Assembly: GCF_006442545.2 (NCBI RefSeq)
Contig: NZ_CP083952.1
Location: forward strand, 682,001 to 746,000
Direction of reading: 5' to 3'
DNA: 64,000 nucleotides
From: Mesorhizobium sp. B2-1-8
GTDB lineage: Bacteria > Pseudomonadota > Alphaproteobacteria > Rhizobiales > Rhizobiaceae
The notes beneath the pieces are model-generated. The model was not told the origin of the DNA. It made no database searches and worked only from the letters and a program-made list of their open reading frames with translations. Below, one piece after another: positions 34,001-39,865 of this stretch (position 1 is the stretch's first letter; each line of letters begins with the position of its first letter). The translations under genes and the position numbers were made by a program.

Positions 34001-35596
34001 TCATTTCCGGGCGACGTCCTCGAAGCTCAAGTCGAACCGCATGAGATATTTGCGTAGCCGGTCGGCATCGTTGCCGCTGGTCTTTTGCAGCCGCGAAACG
34101 GCGAACAGTTTTCGGCCGGCGGCGCTGATCGAGTTGCTGTCGCGGCAGACCTCGAGCACGGTGGCAAGTTGCGGCCGATCGAATAGGTCGATCCGGCTTT
34201 GCCGCTCGACACCCAAAGCCTCCACCAGGATGGCCTCGCGGCCGCCGGCATCCCCGGCACGCCACAGCATCGTCAGTCGTTCGATCTCGTCGCGCACGGT
34301 CTCCTCGTTGATGCGGCCGAGCGGCGCCAGTGTCGCCATGCGGGTAATGGATGCCGACAGATCGCGGAAATTGGCACGCCACATCGCCTGCGGCGCGATG
34401 GCGAATTTCAGGTAGAGATCCCGCGCCTCCCTGTTGAAGGTCACGTTCTGGCCCTCGCGTTCGCCGAAGCGGCGCAGCTCGAAGTCGAGGTTGGGCTCGA
34501 TGTCTTCCTTGCGGTCGCGTAGCGCCGGAAGCTGGAAGGTCCAGAGATTCAGACGTGCGAACAAATCCTCGCGGAACCTGCCCTCCTTCACGCCGATCGA
34601 CAGGTCGCGATTGGTGCCGGCCAGAAGCTGGAAATCCGAGATTACGTCCTGGTCGGCGCCCACCGGCAGGAAACGCTTCTCCTCGATGGCGCGCAGGCAC
34701 ATGGCCTGTTCGTCGATGCCGAGTTCACCGATCTCGTCGAGAAACAGCACGCCCTTGTTGGCCGACTTCATCAGCCCGGCGCGTTCGTTCTGCGCGCCGG
34801 TGAAAGCGCCCTTGACGTGGCCGAACAGCGTCGACATCGCCTGGTCGCCGCGCAAGGTCGCGCAATTGACCTCGATGAAGGCGCCGGAAACCTGCCGCTG
34901 CGCTTTCTTGAGTTCGTAGATGCGGCGCGCGAGCTGCGACTTGCCGGCGCCTGTCGGGCCGGTGAGCAGGACGGGCGCGCGCGAGCGGATCGTCACCTTC
35001 TCGATCTGGTCGATCATCTGGTTGAAGGCCGGATTGCGGGTGGCGATGCCAGACTTCAGGAACGACGTCGCCTCGTCGCGCTCCGCGGTAAAGCGTGTAG
35101 CGATCGCATCATAACGCGACAGGTCGAGGTCGATGATCGAGTGGCTGCCGGAGACGTCGTCGCGCCCATCCTTGCGGGGAGAGAGCTGTAGCAGGCGTGC
35201 AGGGATGAAGTGGGCCTCGGTGAGCAGGAACCAGCAGATCTGCGCGACATGCGTGCCGGTAGTGATGTTGACGAGATAATCCTCCTTCTCGGGATCGAAC
35301 ACATAACCCCGGGCAAAATCGCGCAGGCCGGTGTAGACCTCGCTGAAATCCCAGGGGTCTCTCATGCCGATGATATGCGGCCTGACCTCTGTCGCCGGCG
35401 AAACCTGTTCGATGTCGGCGATGATCTGCGTGGCGAGCTGCCGGGACTGTGTCCCGTGAATGAGTTCCAGGCGGTCAATGAACAATCCCTGCTGCTGGCA
35501 CAGCGCAACCGTCGGCCGCCATTTCTTCCAGCGGTCGTCGGTGCGACCCGCATCGAGCGTCGTCCCGAGAATACCTATAGCGACCCGTCTTCGCAT
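34001..35596 (-). CDS. rtcR: Sigma-54-dependent regulator of RNA repair, RtcR
   Basis: A 531-residue bacterial enhancer-binding protein. Residues about 1-180 form the RtcR sensor, a CARF-type Rossmann fold starting RVAIGILGTTLD and containing YLVNITTGTHVAQICWFLLTEA. The AAA+ domain has Walker A GPTGAGKS (213-220), the sigma-54 contact motif GAFTGA (263-268) and Walker B VLFLDEIG (283-290). A C-terminal helical DNA-binding region has SNSISAAGRKLFAVSRLQKT. RtcR represses itself through the sensor until it binds RNA ends generated by damage, then activates rtc operons with sigma-54. It diverges from rsr across a 207-base gap containing a sigma-54 promoter. Confidence 0.95.
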   Translation of the reverse strand: MRRRVAIGILGTTLDAGRTDDRWKKWRPTVALCQQQGLFIDRLELIHGTQSRQLATQIIADIEQVSPATEVRPHIIGMRDPWDFSEVYTGLRDFARGYVFDPEKEDYLVNITTGTHVAQICWFLLTEAHFIPARLLQLSPRKDGRDDVSGSHSIIDLDLSRYDAIATRFTAERDEATSFLKSGIATRNPAFNQMIDQIEKVTIRSRAPVLLTGPTGAGKSQLARRIYELKKAQRQVSGAFIEVNCATLRGDQAMSTLFGHVKGAFTGAQNERAGLMKSANKGVLFLDEIGELGIDEQAMCLRAIEEKRFLPVGADQDVISDFQLLAGTNRDLSIGVKEGRFREDLFARLNLWTFQLPALRDRKEDIEPNLDFELRRFGEREGQNVTFNREARDLYLKFAIAPQAMWRANFRDLSASITRMATLAPLGRINEETVRDEIERLTMLWRAGDAGGREAILVEALGVERQSRIDLFDRPQLATVLEVCRDSNSISAAGRKLFAVSRLQKTSGNDADRLRKYLMRFDLSFEDVARK

Positions 35597-35755: not shown

Positions 35756-35771
35756 TGGCACGCAGCTTGTA
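35756..35771 (+). promoter_or_regulatory. Sigma-54 promoter of the rsr-Y RNA-rtcB operon
   Basis: TGGCACGCAGCTTGTA matches the -24/-12 consensus TGGCACGNNNNTTGCW except for T in place of C in the -12 element. Spacing is exact and the invariant GG and the TTG core are present. Transcription should start near 35782, about 20 bases before the rsr ATG. This is the promoter RtcR is expected to activate. Confidence 0.85.
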
Positions 35772-35803: not shown

Positions 35804-37363
35804 ATGGCGAACAAATCCGTGTTTGCGACGAGTGCAGGAAAGCTGCTCCCGCCGGCTGACGCCAAAAACCGTGAGGGTGCCCGGGCTTACCGCCTATCGC
35901 CCGAGCAGTCTCTGGCGCAGCTGGCGGCGACGGGAACGTTCAACGCCACCTTCTACGCCGAGCCGCGTGAGCAGCTGGACGAGGTGCTGAAGCTTGCCTG
36001 GCAGGTCGAGCCGGGGTTCCTGGCACGCACCGCCGTCCACGCTTTCGAGCAGGGCTACATGAAGGACATGCCGGCGCTGCTGCTGGCCGTTCTCTCCTCG
36101 ATGCAGGGCGACGAGTTCGACCGTGCTTTCGGGCGCATCGTCCGGAACGGCAAGATGCTGCGCAACTTCGTGCAGGTCATGCGTTCGGGCGCCACCGGCC
36201 GCAAGTCGCTCGGCACGCGGCCGAAGCGCCATGTCCAGGCCTGGCTCGAGCAGGCGGCCGACTTCGAGATCATGCGGGCCGCGGTCGGCAACGATCCGTC
36301 GCTGGCCGATGTCGTGAAGATGGTTCACCCGAAGCCGAAATCGGCGTCGCGTGAGGCGCTTTATGGCTATCTCCTGGGCAAGCCGCACGACGTGGCCGTG
36401 CTGCCGGACGTGGTGAAGGCATTCGAAGCCTTCAAGCGCGATCCATCGCTGCCTGTGCCTGAGGTGCCGTTCCAGATGCTGACCTCGATGCCGCTGTCGC
36501 GTGAACATTGGGTGCAGATCGCGCAAACGGCCGGATGGCAGATGCTGCGGCAGAACCTGAACACCTTTGCCCGCAATGGCGTGTTCGAAGTGGAAGGGTT
36601 CGGCGAGAAGCTGGCGGCGCGTCTGCGCGATCCCCAGGAGGTCCCGCGCGCCCGGGTGTTCCCGTATCAGCTGATGGTGGCGTTCACCGTGGCCGATGCG
36701 AAAGTGCCTGGCGTGGTTAGGGACGCGCTGCAGGATGCGATGGAAATCGCGCTCGGCAACGTGCCCCGGATCAAGGGCAACGTGGTGGTGTGTCCAGACG
36801 TTTCGGGCTCAATGAGCTCGCCCGTCACCGGCTACCGCCAGGGCGCGACGTCGGCCGTGCGTTGCATCGATGTGGCCGCCCTGGTGGCCGCCGCACTGCT
36901 GCGACGCAACCCGACGGCCAGGGTGTTGCCGTTCGAGAACGATGTGGTTGATGTCAGCCTCAACGCTCGCGATACGGTGATGACCAACGCCGCCAAGCTT
37001 GCCACCGTCGGTGGTGGCGGGACCAACTGTTCGGCTCCGCTGGCGCGGCTGGTGCGCGAGAAGGCCGATGTCGACCTGGTGGTGTTCGTGTCGGACAACC
37101 AGTCCTGGGTGGATGCCTCGGCGCATGCGCATCAGGGGACGGCGACGATGCAGGAATGGCAGAAGTTGAAGGGGTTGAACCCGGCAGCCAAGCTGGTCTG
37201 CATCGACATCCAGTCCCATGCGACGACGCAGGCCAAGTCGCAGGCCGACATCCTGAATGTCGGTGGCTTCTCCGACCGCGTCTTCGACGTGGTTGGGACG
37301 ATGTTGTCGTCGAGCGGCGACCCGGACCATTGGGTGCGCACGATCGAGGCGATCGAACTCTGA
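35804..37363 (+). CDS. rsr: Ro60 orthologue, TROVE-domain RNA-binding protein
   Basis: A 519-residue ring-shaped RNA-binding protein. The TROVE HEAT-repeat domain covers roughly residues 25-325 (YRLSPEQSLAQLAATGTFNATFYA, then FDRAFGRIVRNGKMLRNFVQVMRSG). A von Willebrand A domain follows, with an intact MIDAS, Asp332-x-Ser334-x-Ser336 (CPDVSGSMSS), and GGGGTNCSAPL further on. Bacterial Ro proteins bind noncoding Y RNAs on the ring surface, and structured RNA ends enter the ring, often with exoribonucleases such as PNPase. It is preceded by a sigma-54 promoter and followed by an array of Y-RNA-like units and rtcB, the arrangement known from enterobacterial rsr-yrl-rtc operons. Confidence 0.96.
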   Translation: MANKSVFATSAGKLLPPADAKNREGARAYRLSPEQSLAQLAATGTFNATFYAEPREQLDEVLKLAWQVEPGFLARTAVHAFEQGYMKDMPALLLAVLSSMQGDEFDRAFGRIVRNGKMLRNFVQVMRSGATGRKSLGTRPKRHVQAWLEQAADFEIMRAAVGNDPSLADVVKMVHPKPKSASREALYGYLLGKPHDVAVLPDVVKAFEAFKRDPSLPVPEVPFQMLTSMPLSREHWVQIAQTAGWQMLRQNLNTFARNGVFEVEGFGEKLAARLRDPQEVPRARVFPYQLMVAFTVADAKVPGVVRDALQDAMEIALGNVPRIKGNVVVCPDVSGSMSSPVTGYRQGATSAVRCIDVAALVAAALLRRNPTARVLPFENDVVDVSLNARDTVMTNAAKLATVGGGGTNCSAPLARLVREKADVDLVVFVSDNQSWVDASAHAHQGTATMQEWQKLKGLNPAAKLVCIDIQSHATTQAKSQADILNVGGFSDRVFDVVGTMLSSSGDPDHWVRTIEAIEL

Positions 37364-37409: not shown

Positions 37410-37545
37410 GGGCATGACGAATGCCGATGGAACTACAGGCTGTTCACCTCCAGGTCGCGGGTTCGAATCCCGTCGGGTCCGCCACTATGGACCCGTAGCT
37501 CAGCGGATAGAGCGGGACGTTTCATCAAACCTTGTCGTCATGCCC
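37410..37545 (+). ncRNA. Y-RNA-like unit 1 (Arg-type tRNA mimic, opened at anticodon loop)
   Basis: Ends pair perfectly over 11 bp: GGGCATGACGA (37410-37420) with 37535-37545. After an internal loop (AUGCC against AAACCUUG) a second stem pairs 37426-37433 with 37519-37526. The interior is a circularly permuted tRNA. First comes the T arm (GCGGG, loop TTCGAAT, CCCGT; 37457-37473), then acceptor strand CGGGTCC (37474-37480), a loop G-CCA-CTAT, and the other acceptor strand GGACCCG (37489-37495). The D arm GCTC/GAGC with GG in its loop is at 37498-37513. The acceptor is a perfect 7 bp and a CCA is retained inside the closing loop. The sequence is close to bacterial tRNA-Arg. The Y stem replaces most of the anticodon arm. 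Confidence 0.85.
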
Positions 37546-37601
37546 GACGGCATTACGCGGTTTCGGCCGCAACTGAATAGGAAAGGAACTGAACAAACAG
37601 C

Positions 37602-37731
37602 GTGACGAATGCCTGTGGAACTACATCCTAACTTTCGGGTCGCGGGTTCGAGTCCCGCCGGAGCTGCCAATCGGCTCCGTAGCTCAGTCGGCAGAGCAGA
37701 AAGGCAGTTTTCGCAGAAATCTTGTCGTCAC
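37602..37731 (+). ncRNA. Y-RNA-like unit 2 (tRNA mimic with anticodon stem kept, anticodon loop replaced)
   Basis: Terminal stem GTGACGA (37602-37608) with TCGTCAC (37725-37731). Internal loop is AUGC against AAAUCUUG; second stem is 37613-37620 with 37709-37716 (eight pairs, two G-U). The permuted tRNA module has T arm GCGGG, TTCGAGT, CCCGC (37642-37658). The acceptor 37659-37665 pairs with GGCTCCG (37673-37679), seven pairs with one U-G, around a loop G-CCA-ATC. D arm GCTC/GAGC (37682-37697) has GG in the loop. A 5-bp anticodon stem is still present: GAAAG (37699-37703) with CTTTC (37632-37636). The Y stem thus stands exactly where an anticodon loop would be. Confidence 0.83.
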
Positions 37732-37742
37732 ACCCGAACAAA

Positions 37743-37873
37743 GCCGCGGCGAATGCCGGATGGAACTACAGCAACATGAACGGGATGCTCCGTGAGGTTC
37801 GACTCCTCACCTTGCAGGCGCTCTCTGGCACGAGCGGGACTCCCGGTGTTTCATCATCCCTTGTCGCCGCGGC
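37743..37873 (+). ncRNA. Y-RNA-like unit 3 (tRNA mimic with minimal acceptor)
   Basis: Terminal stem of 10 perfect pairs, GCCGCGGCGA (37743-37752) with 37864-37873. Internal loop is AUGCC against AUCCCUUG; second stem is GATGGAAC (37759-37766) with GTTTCATC (37848-37855), identical to that of unit 1. T arm is GTGAGG, loop TTCGACT, CCTCAC (37792-37810). D arm is GCTC/GAGC at 37820-37835 with GG in the loop. Between them only CCTTGCAGG remains, a 3-bp stub instead of a 7-bp acceptor, and no CCA. An extra small hairpin, CGGG-ACT-CCCG (37835-37845), follows the D arm. Confidence 0.8.
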
Positions 37874-37884
37874 GACCGAACAAA

Positions 37885-38009
37885 TGGCGAATGCAGGCAG
37901 GACTACAGGTAGCGCGCCCGTCGAAGGACGGGAGGTCGGGTGTTCAAATCACTCTCCCGCTCTCTGGAGCGGGGTGGCGCAGTCACCGTCTTGCCGATCC
38001 TTGTCGCCA
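37885..38009 (+). ncRNA. Y-RNA-like unit 4 (Pro-type tRNA mimic, opened in the D loop)
   Basis: Terminal stem TGGCGA (37885-37890) with TCGCCA (38004-38009). Internal loop is AUGCA against GAUCCUUG; second stem is 37896-37903 with 37988-37995 (eight pairs, one G-U). Here the tRNA is cut in the D loop. D-stem strands GCGC are at 37912-37915 and 37977-37980, and the D-loop pieces GGTA and AGTC border the Y stem. The anticodon arm survives as CCCGTC-GAAG-GACGGG (37917-37932), its loop cut to a tetraloop. T arm is GGGTG, TTCAAAT, CACTC (37938-37954). Acceptor 37955-37961 pairs with 37968-37974 and is closed by a short loop without CCA. TGGCGCAGTC and GGTAGCGCG match tRNA-Pro. Confidence 0.82.
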
Positions 38010-38019
38010 GCCGATTGAA

Positions 38020-38115
38020 CGGGCGAATGCCTGCGGGAATACATTGGTATCTGGCGGTTCGAATCCGCCCGTCGATCGGTTGATCGATCGGTTTCTCGCT
38101 TCGATTTGTCGCCCG
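38020..38115 (+). ncRNA. Y-RNA-like unit 5 (minimal: T arm plus acceptor hairpin)
   Basis: Shortest unit, 96 bases. Terminal stem CGGGCGA (38020-38026) with TCGCCCG (38109-38115). Internal loop is AUGCC against UCGAUUUG; second stem is 38033-38039 with 38093-38099 (seven pairs, one G-U). Only a T arm (GGCGG, TTCGAAT, CCGCC; 38053-38069) and a closed acceptor-like hairpin GTCGATC/GATCGAT with loop GGTT (38071-38088) remain. There is no D stem and no anticodon arm. A TTGGTA at 38044-38049 resembles a D-loop remnant whose GG could still dock on the T loop. Confidence 0.75.
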
Positions 38116-38134
38116 CCGCAGAGAAGGGAATGAA

Positions 38135-38266
38135 TGGCGAATGCAGGCAGGATTACAGGATAGAGCATCCGCGGCGAAAGCGGCGGAAGGTCGGATGTTC
38201 AAGCCATCCCTTCCATCCCACTGGGACGGAAAGTAGCTCAGTTTGTCTTGCCGACACTTGTCGCCA
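38135..38266 (+). ncRNA. Y-RNA-like unit 6 (tRNA mimic opened in the D loop, anticodon arm kept)
   Basis: Terminal stem TGGCGA (38135-38140) with TCGCCA (38261-38266), as in unit 4. Internal loop is AUGCA against GACACUUG; second stem is 38146-38153 with 38245-38252 (eight pairs, two G-U). D-stem strands are split: GAGC at 38163-38166 and GCTC at 38236-38239. Between them lie an anticodon-like arm CCGC-GGCGAAA-GCGG (38169-38183) with a 7-base loop, a variable region AAGGTC, and T arm GGATG, TTCAAGC, CATCC (38193-38209). The acceptor 38213-38219 pairs with GGGACGG (38223-38229), with one A-C mismatch. GGATAGAGCATCCGC and GTAGCTCAG are typical of Arg/Lys-type tRNAs. Confidence 0.8.
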
Positions 38267-38276
38267 GACCGAATAA

Positions 38277-38420
38277 GGACGAATGCCTGCGAGACTACAG
38301 GTAGACGCGGCCCGCTCCGAAGCAAACAAGCAAGCGGGTGCCGAAAGGCGTGAGGGTTCGTATCCCTCCTTCGCATCTTCGCGAAGTGGCGGAAAAATGT
38401 CTCGCATTCCCTTGTCGTCC
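38277..38420 (+). ncRNA. Y-RNA-like unit 7 (Leu-type, class II tRNA mimic, opened in the D loop)
   Basis: Terminal stem GGACGA (38277-38282) with TCGTCC (38415-38420). Internal loop is AUGCC against UUCCCUUG; second stem is a perfect 8 bp, TGCGAGAC (38288-38295) with 38399-38406. D-stem strands are CGC at 38306-38308 and GCG at 38389-38391. An expanded anticodon-like hairpin CCCGCT/AGCGGG with a 16-base loop spans 38311-38338. A class-II variable arm GCC-GAAA-GGC lies at 38340-38349. T arm is GAGGG, TTCGTAT, CCCTC (38352-38368); its loop has T where A58 is normally invariant. Acceptor is CTTCGC/GCGAAG (38369-38386). GTGGCGGAA, GGTAGACGCG and TGCCGAAAGGCGTG are tRNA-Leu signatures. Confidence 0.82.
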
Positions 38421-38461: not shown

Positions 38462-39865
38462 ATGACCGAGATTTTGAGTGGACAGGATTTGATCGACGCC
38501 GGCATGCCGCAGGGCAAATGGTTCGGCAAGGCGCTGGCCGCCGCCAATGCGGTGCTGGAGAAGGGTGGATCGCAGGGCGATGCGCTGGAGGCCGCGCGCG
38601 CTTTCGCGCCGCCGCCCGCCATTCCGCTGCATGCGGCTTCCTCGATGCCACTGCACCTCAACATCGAGGCCGAAACGCCTGACGAAGCCGCCAATGTCGA
38701 AGCGGTGATGCGCTCGATGACCGAGCTGATGCGCACGCCGGTGATCCGCGCCGGCGCCATCATGCCGGACGCCTGCCCGGCTGGTCCGGCGGGCACGATT
38801 CCGGTCGGCGGCGTCGCCGTGTCCGAAGGCATCCACCCCGGCATGCATTCTGCCGACATCTGCTGCTCGATGGCGATCTCGGTATTTCCCGGCGTGGCGC
38901 CCGTCGCGCTGCTCGATGCCATTCATGGGGTCACCCATTTCGGACCGGGCGGGCGTCCGCGGGGCCAGCAGATCCGGCCGGCCAAGGAGATCTTCGAGCG
39001 TTTCGAGGCCAACCCCTTGCTGCGCGACCTGACCAGTGCCGCGATCGAGCATTTCGGCACGCAGGGCGACGGCAACCATTTCGCCTATGTCGGCACGTTG
39101 AAGTCGAGTGGCGAGACGGCGCTGGTCACCCATCACGGCTCGCGCTCGCCTGGCGCGCGGCTCTACAGCAAGGGGATGAGGATCGCCGAGGGCGTCCGCA
39201 AGACGCTGTCGCCGGAAACCTTGCCGCAGAACGCCTGGATCCCGGCCGACACGCGGGAAGGCGATGAGTATTGGGACGCCCTGCAAACGATCCGCGAATG
39301 GACCAAGGGCAACCATATGCTCATCCACGACCTAGCGGCCGAAAAGCTGTCGGCGAAGGTGTCGGACCGGTTCTGGAACGAGCACAACTTCGTCTTCCGC
39401 CGCTCGGATGGGCTATTCTACCACGGCAAGGGCGCCACACCGGCATTCGACAACTGGGCCGACGACGCCACCGATCTGACGCTGATCCCGCTCAACATGG
39501 CGGAACCGGTGCTGATTGTACGTGGCAAGAACGCGGTGCACGGGCTTGGCTTCTCGCCTCACGGCGCCGGGCGCAATTTCTCGCGCACCCAGCACCGGCG
39601 CATGCAGGCGGGGCGCAGCGACGCCGATATCTTCGCGCAGGAGACGAAGGGCATCGATGCTCGCTTCTTCTCCGGCGTGACGGATATTTCGGAGTTGCCG
39701 AGCGCCTACAAGAACGCGGCCTCGATGCGCCGCCAGATCGAGCATTTCGGTCTGGCGGAGATCGTCGACGAAGTGCTGCCTTATGGCTGCATCATGGCCG
39801 GCGACTGGGAGGCGAACGCGCCATGGCGCAAGAAGTGGGAAGCGCGCCAGCAACAGGGGCGCTAA
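38462..39865 (+). CDS. rtcB: RNA ligase RtcB family protein
   Basis: A 467-residue RtcB-family ligase, which joins RNA 3'-phosphate or 2',3'-cyclic phosphate ends to 5'-hydroxyl ends using GTP and Mn2+. Metal and catalytic motifs are present: HSADICCSM around residues 129-137 (Asp132 and Cys), QGDGNHFAYVG at 201-211, THHGSRSPG around 223-231, and SPHGAGRNFSRTQ near the C-terminus with the guanylylated His. The first motif differs from the common GFDIGCG form, so this belongs to a divergent RtcB subgroup. The ATG at 38462 has TGAAGGA upstream. It lies 41 bases after the last Y-RNA-like unit, completing an rtcR/rsr/Y RNA/rtcB locus. No rtcA cyclase gene follows. Confidence 0.93.
   Translation: MTEILSGQDLIDAGMPQGKWFGKALAAANAVLEKGGSQGDALEAARAFAPPPAIPLHAASSMPLHLNIEAETPDEAANVEAVMRSMTELMRTPVIRAGAIMPDACPAGPAGTIPVGGVAVSEGIHPGMHSADICCSMAISVFPGVAPVALLDAIHGVTHFGPGGRPRGQQIRPAKEIFERFEANPLLRDLTSAAIEHFGTQGDGNHFAYVGTLKSSGETALVTHHGSRSPGARLYSKGMRIAEGVRKTLSPETLPQNAWIPADTREGDEYWDALQTIREWTKGNHMLIHDLAAEKLSAKVSDRFWNEHNFVFRRSDGLFYHGKGATPAFDNWADDATDLTLIPLNMAEPVLIVRGKNAVHGLGFSPHGAGRNFSRTQHRRMQAGRSDADIFAQETKGIDARFFSGVTDISELPSAYKNAASMRRQIEHFGLAEIVDEVLPYGCIMAGDWEANAPWRKKWEARQQQGR

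Follow-up and report, generated by a model that had tools for sequence, protein, structure and literature searches.

A predicted cassette of seven Y RNAs with differing tRNA-mimic heads between rsr and rtcB in Mesorhizobium sp. B2-1-8

In a 64,000-nucleotide stretch of the Mesorhizobium sp. B2-1-8 genome (NZ_CP083952.1, positions 682,001 to 746,000; hereafter the window), the 1.1 kb between rsr, encoding the bacterial Ro60 protein, a ring-shaped RNA binder, and rtcB, encoding an RNA ligase, resolves into seven tandem units on the plus strand, designated U1 to U7 (Table 1). The gene order is rtcR, divergent from rsr, followed by the seven-unit array, rtcB, and an AraC-type gene on the opposite strand. 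An earlier note on this DNA had placed seven Y RNA/tRNA chimeras at these starts, and the Rfam YrlA model (RF02553) indeed aligned all seven units end to end, with E values from 4e-17 to 0.67. A coding role for the spacer was rejected, as only mechanical open reading frames were found. Judging from sequence, we consider it almost certain that the spacer is one cassette of seven Y RNAs, combining an Rsr-type stem with differing tRNA-mimic heads.

Table 1. Coordinates of the rtcR-rsr-rtcB locus and of the arms in each Y RNA head (window positions)
Feature	Coordinates	Strand	Basis or remark
rtcR	34001..35596	-	Pfam RtcR 268.7 bits and Sigma54_activat 167 bits
Sigma-54 (-24/-12) promoter-like site TGGCACGCAGCTTGTA	35756..35771	+	upstream of rsr
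rsr (bacterial Ro60, 519 aa)	35804..37363	+	Pfam vWA_Ro60 71.5 bits
U1	37410-37545	+	refined ends
U1 head, YrlA type	T arm ~37457-37473; acceptor hairpin 37474-37495; D arm 37498-37513	+	RF02553, fold
U2	37602-37731	+	refined ends
U2 head, YrlA type	T arm ~37642-37658; acceptor 37659-37679; D arm 37682-37697	+	RF02553, fold
U3	37743-37873	+	refined ends
U3 head	6-bp T arm 37792-37810; hairpin CGCUC-UCUGGCAC-GAGCG 37819-37836; acceptor absent	+	alignment of 16, consensus fold
U4	37885-38009	+	refined ends
U4 head, D-type	D strands 37912-37915/37977-37980; anticodon-arm hairpin 37917-37932 (GAAG loop); T arm 37938-37954; acceptor hairpin 37955-37974	+	fold, covariation
U5	38020-38115	+	refined ends
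U5 head	T arm 38053-38069; acceptor-like hairpin 38071-38088; nothing more	+	RF02553, alignment of 14
U6	38135-38266	+	refined ends
U6 head, D-type	anticodon-arm hairpin 38168-38187 (GAAA loop); T arm 38193-38209; D 5' strand 38236-38239	+	fold, covariation, in R1
U7	38277-38420	+	refined ends
U7 head, D-type	anticodon-arm-like hairpin 38310-38339; variable arm 38340-38349; T arm 38352-38368; acceptor 38369-38386	+	fold
Short A-rich linkers, U2-U7	37732-37742, 37874-37884, 38010-38019, 38116-38134, 38267-38276	+	sequence inspection
rtcB (RNA ligase)	38462..39865	+	Pfam RtcB 110 bits

All seven units are closed by an Rsr (Ro60)-type terminal stem of 6-11 bp that pairs throughout and differs in sequence from unit to unit. 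The 5' strand of this stem ends in GA followed by AUGC in every unit, while CUUG (six units) or UUUG (U5) precedes the 3' strand, and the internal loop leads into a second stem of 7-8 bp and, beyond it, a T arm bearing UUCG or UUCA. The earlier note had described each of these elements, and they were recovered here as it gave them. An Rsr-type stem with the conserved internal loop, the broad definition of a bacterial Y RNA, is thus present in 7/7 units, both by sequence and by covariance model (CM) alignment. RF02553 scored U1 at 74.7, U2 at 69.1, U5 at 46.3, U4 at 30.8, U6 at 29.3, U7 at 27.5 and U3 at 18.7 bits; with a gathering score of 69, U1 and U2 are YrlA members at Rfam's own threshold and U3-U7 are not, the Ro module of the low scorers fitting the model while their heads misfit it. 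A whole-genome search with the same model returned five array units plus four other places of at most 25.1 bits, with U3 and U6 unlisted. The reverse strand of the window gave no units with a stem scanner, which picked out three further plus-strand places outside the array. Folding-energy z values of the units ranged from -1.6 to -3.3, and among 200 shuffles, 14 folded equally well for U5, nine for U2 and 0-3 for the remaining units; folding energy taken alone is moderate evidence for structure.

Beyond this module, the units are not of a single kind, as the earlier note had treated them; the acceptor, D, anticodon and variable arms had escaped it, and unconstrained minimum-energy folds of the heads give at least four architectures. 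Head completeness is graded, from T arm plus acceptor (U5) and T arm plus D-like hairpin (U3), through T arm, acceptor and D arm (U1 and U2), to a whole cloverleaf (U4 and U6) and a whole cloverleaf with variable arm (U7), and in several relatives the minimum-energy fold deviates partly from the window head pattern. U1 and U2 follow the classical YrlA pattern of T arm, closed acceptor and complete D arm, the Ro stem occupying the anticodon-arm position, and the U1 acceptor hairpin encodes GCCA, after which come immediately a linker of 4 nt and the acceptor 5' strand. The second hairpin of U3 is probably the counterpart of a D arm, because its loop, UCUGGCAC, offers GG; in the alignment of 16 U3-type sequences, two-sided changes occur in the T stem, and the five hairpin pairs are invariant. 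For the U5 type, the consensus fold of 14 sequences predicted only two pairs in the acceptor-like hairpin.

U4, U6 and U7 fold into a layout that we term D-type, a whole cloverleaf permuted at the D loop, defined by a D stem between the head ends, an anticodon-arm hairpin, a T arm and an acceptor hairpin. The head's two ends pair to make the D stem, which encloses the anticodon-arm hairpin, variable region, T arm and acceptor hairpin in that order, and the Ro stem exits at the position of D-loop residues 16-17. The array shares with YrlA the Rsr-type stem, the AUGC/CUUG internal loop, the second stem, the T arm, the closed acceptor and the location beside rsr, but in U4, U6 and U7 an anticodon-arm hairpin is retained, and the Ro stem is attached within the D loop rather than at the anticodon. 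In addition, U7, whose D stem has 3 pairs, bears a long variable arm, GCC-GAAA-GGC, of the tRNA-Leu type, which YrlA lacks. YrlB (RF02565) and short Y RNAs likewise have a Ro-type stem adjoining rsr; however, all window units possess a T arm, and none of the seven matched YrlB up to E 1.

With tRNA (RF00005) and permuted tRNA genes, the heads have in common the cloverleaf, the D-loop GG, the UUC loop and the residues U8/A14 and R15/C48, and U4 and U6 retain the elbow residues. In contrast to tRNA, the array heads have no anticodon loop, its place being taken by a tetraloop in U4 and U6 and by a larger variable loop in U7; their acceptors are closed, in D-type units by a short loop that leaves no free 3' end; and the Ro stem lies in the D loop or replaces the anticodon arm. 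No window unit combines a 7-nt anticodon loop with a free acceptor end, and ARAGORN reported zero tRNAs in the window. In permuted tRNA genes the 3' half precedes the 5' half, and this order, which the heads share, together with the placement of GCCA in U1, would suit precursors that mature into working tRNAs. However, the acceptors of U4, U6 and U7 lack GCCA, in four relatives (L068, L072, L074 and L076) the U1 acceptor loop is enlarged and measures 36-94 nt instead of 4, and a 7-nt anticodon loop is found in the fold of no window unit. Functional permuted tRNAs were rejected on the absence of the anticodon loop, and we rate maturation into tRNAs as having next to no probability.

The folds of U4 and U6 are supported by changes among relatives, as the earlier note had anticipated for its paired regions. 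In the U6 alignment (12 sequences), 97.6% of pair cells are paired and 11 cells show two-sided change, a number reached by 0/500 shuffles, which leave the relatedness among the sequences in place; sliding the partner strand cuts pairing to at most 57%, and two-sided changes affect three of the eight anticodon-arm pairs. In the U4 alignment (14 sequences), 99.6% of pair cells are paired and 6 are two-sided (3/500 shuffles as high). A D-stem pair about 70 columns apart is C-G versus A-U between U4-kind and U6-kind rows and is paired in 17/17, in a joint alignment in which the acceptor helix is off by one column between the two kinds. Rfam, the covariance models and these compensatory changes together support the description of the units as Y RNA/tRNA chimeras with selected structure.

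A covariance model, R1, was made from 17 U4/U6-kind D-type units and run on the window together with 80 rsr loci. These loci are those of the best-ranking relatives of this Rsr (80 of 119), and the resulting counts describe that Rsr neighbourhood. R1 gave 314 matches at E ≤ 0.1, of which the 300 listed were all on the plus strand, and in three batches it gave 319 matches at E ≤ 0.01, all on the plus strand with the loci oriented by rsr. U4, itself part of R1, scored 128 bits (4.3e-36), and U7, not part of R1, scored 48.6 bits (1.5e-11). Y units were recovered in 80/81 sources and downstream of rsr in 79/81, with none in L121. In Cardiobacterium hominis (L114:5191-5970), five Y units lie upstream of rsr and not downstream.

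Our own topology classifier left many units as '?' or '-', so D-type counts were taken from the CM alignments and lean towards the structure of the model. D-type pairing was found in 65 rows, 55 with four and 10 with three D-stem pairs. Twelve of these were dropped, namely eight judged to be flank tRNA genes (L092 twice, L107, L099, L101:2002, L117, L085:3959 and L141, with an Rfam check on L101:2002 only) and four ambiguous ones (L104, L131, L143 and L113), which left 53 D-type units in 33 sources, U7 not among them. R1 matches at the judged flank tRNA genes reached 19-30 bits; L101:2002-2122 overlies two neighbouring tRNAs according to Rfam, as expected if a head begins with the 3' part of one tRNA and continues with the 5' part of another. 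Thirty-seven of the 53 units come from the Mesorhizobium group, in which all 19 sources (the window and 18 loci, one labelled Microvirga) have them. The other 16 occur in 14 sources, labelled as Rhizobium (L083, L085, L086), Burkholderiales or beta proteobacteria (L100, L101, L120), Verrucomicrobia, Pedosphaera or PVC (L095, L096, L098, L133, L136, L137), and Acidobacteria or Bryobacterales (L105, L109).

When the 53 D-type units were rewritten in tRNA order, exactly three hairpins formed in 44, whose middle loops measured 4 nt in 33 units, 7 nt in two and 3, 5, 6 or 8 nt in the rest. For 16 units in tRNA order, the unconstrained consensus is a cloverleaf in which 13 of 21 pairs are changed on both sides in one or more sequences, and acceptor pairs are broken in several rows of this alignment. 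A second model, R2, was made from these 16 units, which we chose from the 53; it contains no tRNA, and its members come from alphaproteobacterial loci only, include window U4 and U6, and comprise no Leu-type unit. Run on 48 loci with host RF00005 places, R2 recovered tRNAs: the 38 best rows were all tRNA places (34 distinct of 49), 32 rows had E ≤ 2e-9, and the two remaining, non-tRNA rows had E values of 0.53 and 3.1. In the window, R2 scored U6 at 54.3 and U4 at 43.8 bits (both in the model); the next matches were one inside U1 (11.2 bits, E 0.29) and two further ones of 9 bits. Conversely, Rfam labels part of the D-type unit L100:8092-8150 as tRNA, with 31.7 bits. Among the 50 D-type units without a Leu arm, residues of the tRNA tertiary core, located by motif, are widely kept (A14, R15 and D-loop GG in 50; U8, U54, U55 and R57 in 49; C56 in 46, C48 in 45 and A58 in 43).

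These results bear on a reading in which the Ro stem alone matters, covering the RNA-binding surface of Rsr, and the heads merely serve stability, folding or modification. According to PMC6340977, Y RNAs block the binding of RNA to Ro60 and Rsr, and units of 54-77 nt, barely more than a Ro stem and with scant room for a head, stand beside tRNA-headed units in such loci as L100, L108, L119 and L131. However, compensatory change preserves the heads, and the tertiary residues of D-type units are kept in loci labelled Proteobacteria, Verrucomicrobia and Acidobacteria, so that we regard this reading as improbable.

The earlier note had taken one or two units per locus as usual and seven as exceptional. 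Counting CM matches plus scanner-only units over the 81 sources, seven is the largest array found and occurs in eight sources, with six units in 13, five in 12, four in 22, three in nine, two in 12, one in three and none in two; seven is therefore the maximum, but at least three units are present in 64/81, and arrays of four to six are common. All 18 Mesorhizobium-group loci (one labelled Microvirga) have five to seven units, and the idea that arrays are a Mesorhizobium peculiarity was rejected on the unit counts across the 81 sources. In 11 loci, Rfam at threshold reported six YrlA where R1 at E ≤ 0.01 found 58 units; the D-type units of these loci all stayed below the YrlA threshold. On Rhizobium etli plasmid pA, the gap after rsr contains four units by R1, one of them D-type with 89.7 bits; since RNA genes do not appear in the gene tables of the plasmid collection, missing unit annotation there is uninformative. 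The consulted literature mentions one Y RNA in Deinococcus and two (yrlB and yrlA) in Salmonella. In the portions of the literature that the searches covered, no Y RNA heads that are D-loop-permuted whole tRNAs were found, and a prior description of them or of larger arrays is possible. The range of head architectures is the notable feature here, and within it chiefly the whole-tRNA mimics permuted at the D loop, which escape Rfam 15 at its threshold. A graded tRNA-mimic series is thus found within one locus, and the D-type topology turns up again in loci labelled as Alphaproteobacteria, Burkholderiales, Verrucomicrobia and Acidobacteria; the array amounts to a natural deletion series of tRNA arms, which makes the role of Y RNA heads directly testable.

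Units were also compared with 47 distinct host tRNA sequences, using 60 single-base shuffles per unit. The best match of U1 was Arg (80.5 vs shuffle maximum 38.1), that of U4 a CAU gene of the non-initiator kind (55.5 vs 37.5), that of U6 the same CAU gene (45.3 vs 34.8) and that of U7 Leu (44.1 vs 38.1). U2 matched no single isotype (Asp 52.0 and Asn 48.7, shuffle maximum 35.2), U5 resembled Val weakly (38.4 vs 34.3), and U3 had no host tRNA match (34.2 vs 34.4). Among relatives, Leu was the best match for U7 in 9/9 sequences of its alignment and for 3/3 other Leu-type units, and Arg for U1 in 10/10 loci with a matchable pattern (18 tried). Strict isotype mimicry for all units was rejected, as U2, U6 and U3 do not show it. 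The Leu signature GGYAGACGC lies downstream of rsr in 18/80 loci, 12 from the Mesorhizobium group and six labelled as Burkholderiales genera or, once, Proteobacteria; TGGCGG[AG] is also downstream in 17 of the 18, all motif checks passed in 9/18, and in the six loci outside the Mesorhizobium group the variable-arm helix is longer and differs between loci.

We favour the explanation, which we hold in even balance, that these Y RNAs are tRNA-damage-induced, Rsr-tethered tRNA look-alikes that occupy tRNA-acting enzymes; that competition for, or holding of, such enzymes is their main role is put forward a little more tentatively. Under this explanation, the 1.1 kb would be a single polycistronic cassette of seven Y RNAs that RtcR and sigma-54 turn on, with rsr and rtcB, when broken tRNAs accumulate. 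The transcript would be cleaved in the A-rich linkers, which are candidate endonuclease sites, and Rsr would grip each Y RNA by its stem. The heads would then present uncleavable, non-chargeable and non-decoding tRNA bodies to damaging nucleases, modification enzymes and decay enzymes, competing for these or bringing them to Rsr, while RtcB may reseal cut tRNAs. The explanation is favoured because a PNPase adaptor needs neither a Leu variable arm nor an Arg-like head, and because the part consistently missing is the loop cut by anticodon nucleases. The co-occurrence of Rsr and D-type units and the adjacency of rtcR were counted in its favour. In Salmonella, the operon responds to tRNA cleavage, the RtcR domain, which is of the CARF type, binds 5' tRNA halves with cyclic phosphate, and YrlA fragments were undetected, the authors suggesting that YrlA may competitively inhibit a nuclease (PMC7790460; Hughes 2020). 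YrlA is modified by DusA and TruB (PMC8394870).

The main rival, and a close one, is that the heads are adaptors of the RYPER type, which recruit PNPase and perhaps other RNases to Rsr, with head variants setting specificity or dosage and the tRNA shape as a mere binding surface; we see this as a serious possibility, though held with some reserve. The Deinococcus Y RNA tethers Rsr to PNPase (PMC7790460, PMC8394870, PMC8058203), and a Y RNA held by Rsr would be shared by that system and our proposal. The Rsr-type stem and T arm kept in 7/7 window units agree with such adaptors, but adaptors alone leave the Leu-like variable arms, the Arg-like head with GCCA and the loop-less anticodon stem unexplained.

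Several points weigh against enzyme-occupying heads. A tether or adaptor role requires no isotype detail and has experimental precedent, and decoys need no attachment to Rsr. Isotype matching is uneven: U4 counterparts match Met in 14/17 sequences and Pro or Thr in L077, L078 and L081, and U6 relatives are mixed (Met 7, Arg 3, Asp 3, Trp 2, Gly 1 and Thr 1; n=17), so that several heads may copy generic tRNA. Counted by pairs, covariation is weaker, since the five U6 pairs with two-sided change were matched by 26/500 shuffles and the two U4 pairs equalled by 30/500, and further pair types in U4 were no higher than in shuffles (311/500 as high). In E. coli, tRNA fragments bind the RtcR CARF domain and not full-length RtcR, and they are insufficient to activate RtcR in vitro (PMC9650030); the tRNA-damage trigger is thus itself debated.

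A bolder form of the enzyme-occupying explanation, which we consider unlikely, is that the array is a genome-encoded, isotype-tuned library of tRNA decoys, an RNA shield against tRNA-targeting toxins or phage-defence nucleases. Its parts would be the Arg-like U1, the CAU-Met-like U4, the Leu-like U7, the elbow-only U3 and the minihelix U5, and Rsr would display decoys that absorb anticodon nucleases and other tRNA attackers as RtcB repairs cut tRNAs. Toxins cutting tRNA-Arg and tRNA-Met activate the E. coli operon, and tRNA-Leu halves were bound best of the three tested by Salmonella RtcR (PMC7790460); the overlap of these published trigger isotypes with those of the array was noted post hoc.

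Heads also accept natural insertions. In the counterpart of the Leu-like U7 in L071 (8482-8669), a dispersed palindromic repeat lies inside the anticodon-arm loop; its core has 63 copies in that genome at up to one mismatch, and the reversed control has 0. A dispersed repeat was rejected as the origin of the insert in the acceptor loop of the Arg-like U1, as the tested motif is single-copy in the L068 and L074 genomes. Insertions are thus tolerated at sites that match the functional tips of tRNA, which argues against charging or decoding. YrlA-like units at L110:7639-7879 and L103:7853-8060 carry long acceptor-region inserts, and their Ro stems measure 22 and 14 bp, respectively.

At the level of the operon, the promoter-like site TGGCACGCAGCTTGTA at 35756 is the sole match in the window with one mismatch, and there are zero without mismatch. 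The -24/-12 pattern is not above chance in the window, with 25 matches at up to two mismatches and 28.5 expected, so that support for a sigma-54 site comes from position and match quality rather than number. Between 35500 and 38600, the sole terminator-like site sits on the opposite strand. This, and the location between two same-strand genes, would also suit a cis-acting structured spacer that controls the stability or polarity of the rsr/rtcB mRNA and yields no separate RNAs; given a complete Rsr-type module in every unit, and the treatment of YrlA and YrlB as separate RNAs in Rfam and the consulted literature, we think this very improbable. The best relative of this Rsr is 94% identical, and the best named ones, at 92-93%, are from Mesorhizobium. 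Among 16 same-family rsr loci, rtcR adjoins in 15 and rtcB in 13, including one contig-split locus. Two loci, L180 and L181 (G126 and G026), have rsr, rtcR and three R1 matches each, with rtcB unmatched within 7.5 kb.

Across 297 genomes of the family, Rsr is patchy, being present in 17 (own genome included) and absent from four of the five genomes of the window's genus. R1 matches of at least 75 bits occur in 13 of these genomes, 12 of them Rsr-positive, and five further genomes have a best match of 35-39 bits. The thirteenth, G108 (L166, G108:C13:44000-54000), carries rtcB and five Y units, with no rsr or rtcR match within the 10 kb fetched and other genes in their place. Upstream in G108 are another gene and a 689-aa gene whose product, we presume, resembles AIPR-type abortive-infection proteins.

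Rsr relatives were absent from IMG/VR viral contigs, while a phage collection held 333 records with Rsr relatives (Mycobacterium 168, Streptomyces 123). Two loci deposited as wastewater phages, L185 and L186, look like the Salmonella rsr-yrlB-yrlA-rtcB locus and probably represent it. Between YrlA and rtcB, both contain a third Y unit (L185:925-1033 and L186:1078-1186; R1 44.7 bits, E 7e-12) that folds as T arm, acceptor and one further hairpin; Rfam up to E 0.001 lists no more than YrlB and YrlA at these loci. In Myxococcus phage Mx1 (L187:7138-7266), an R1 match of 25.2 bits (E 7e-6) lies about 1.5 kb after the Rsr gene.

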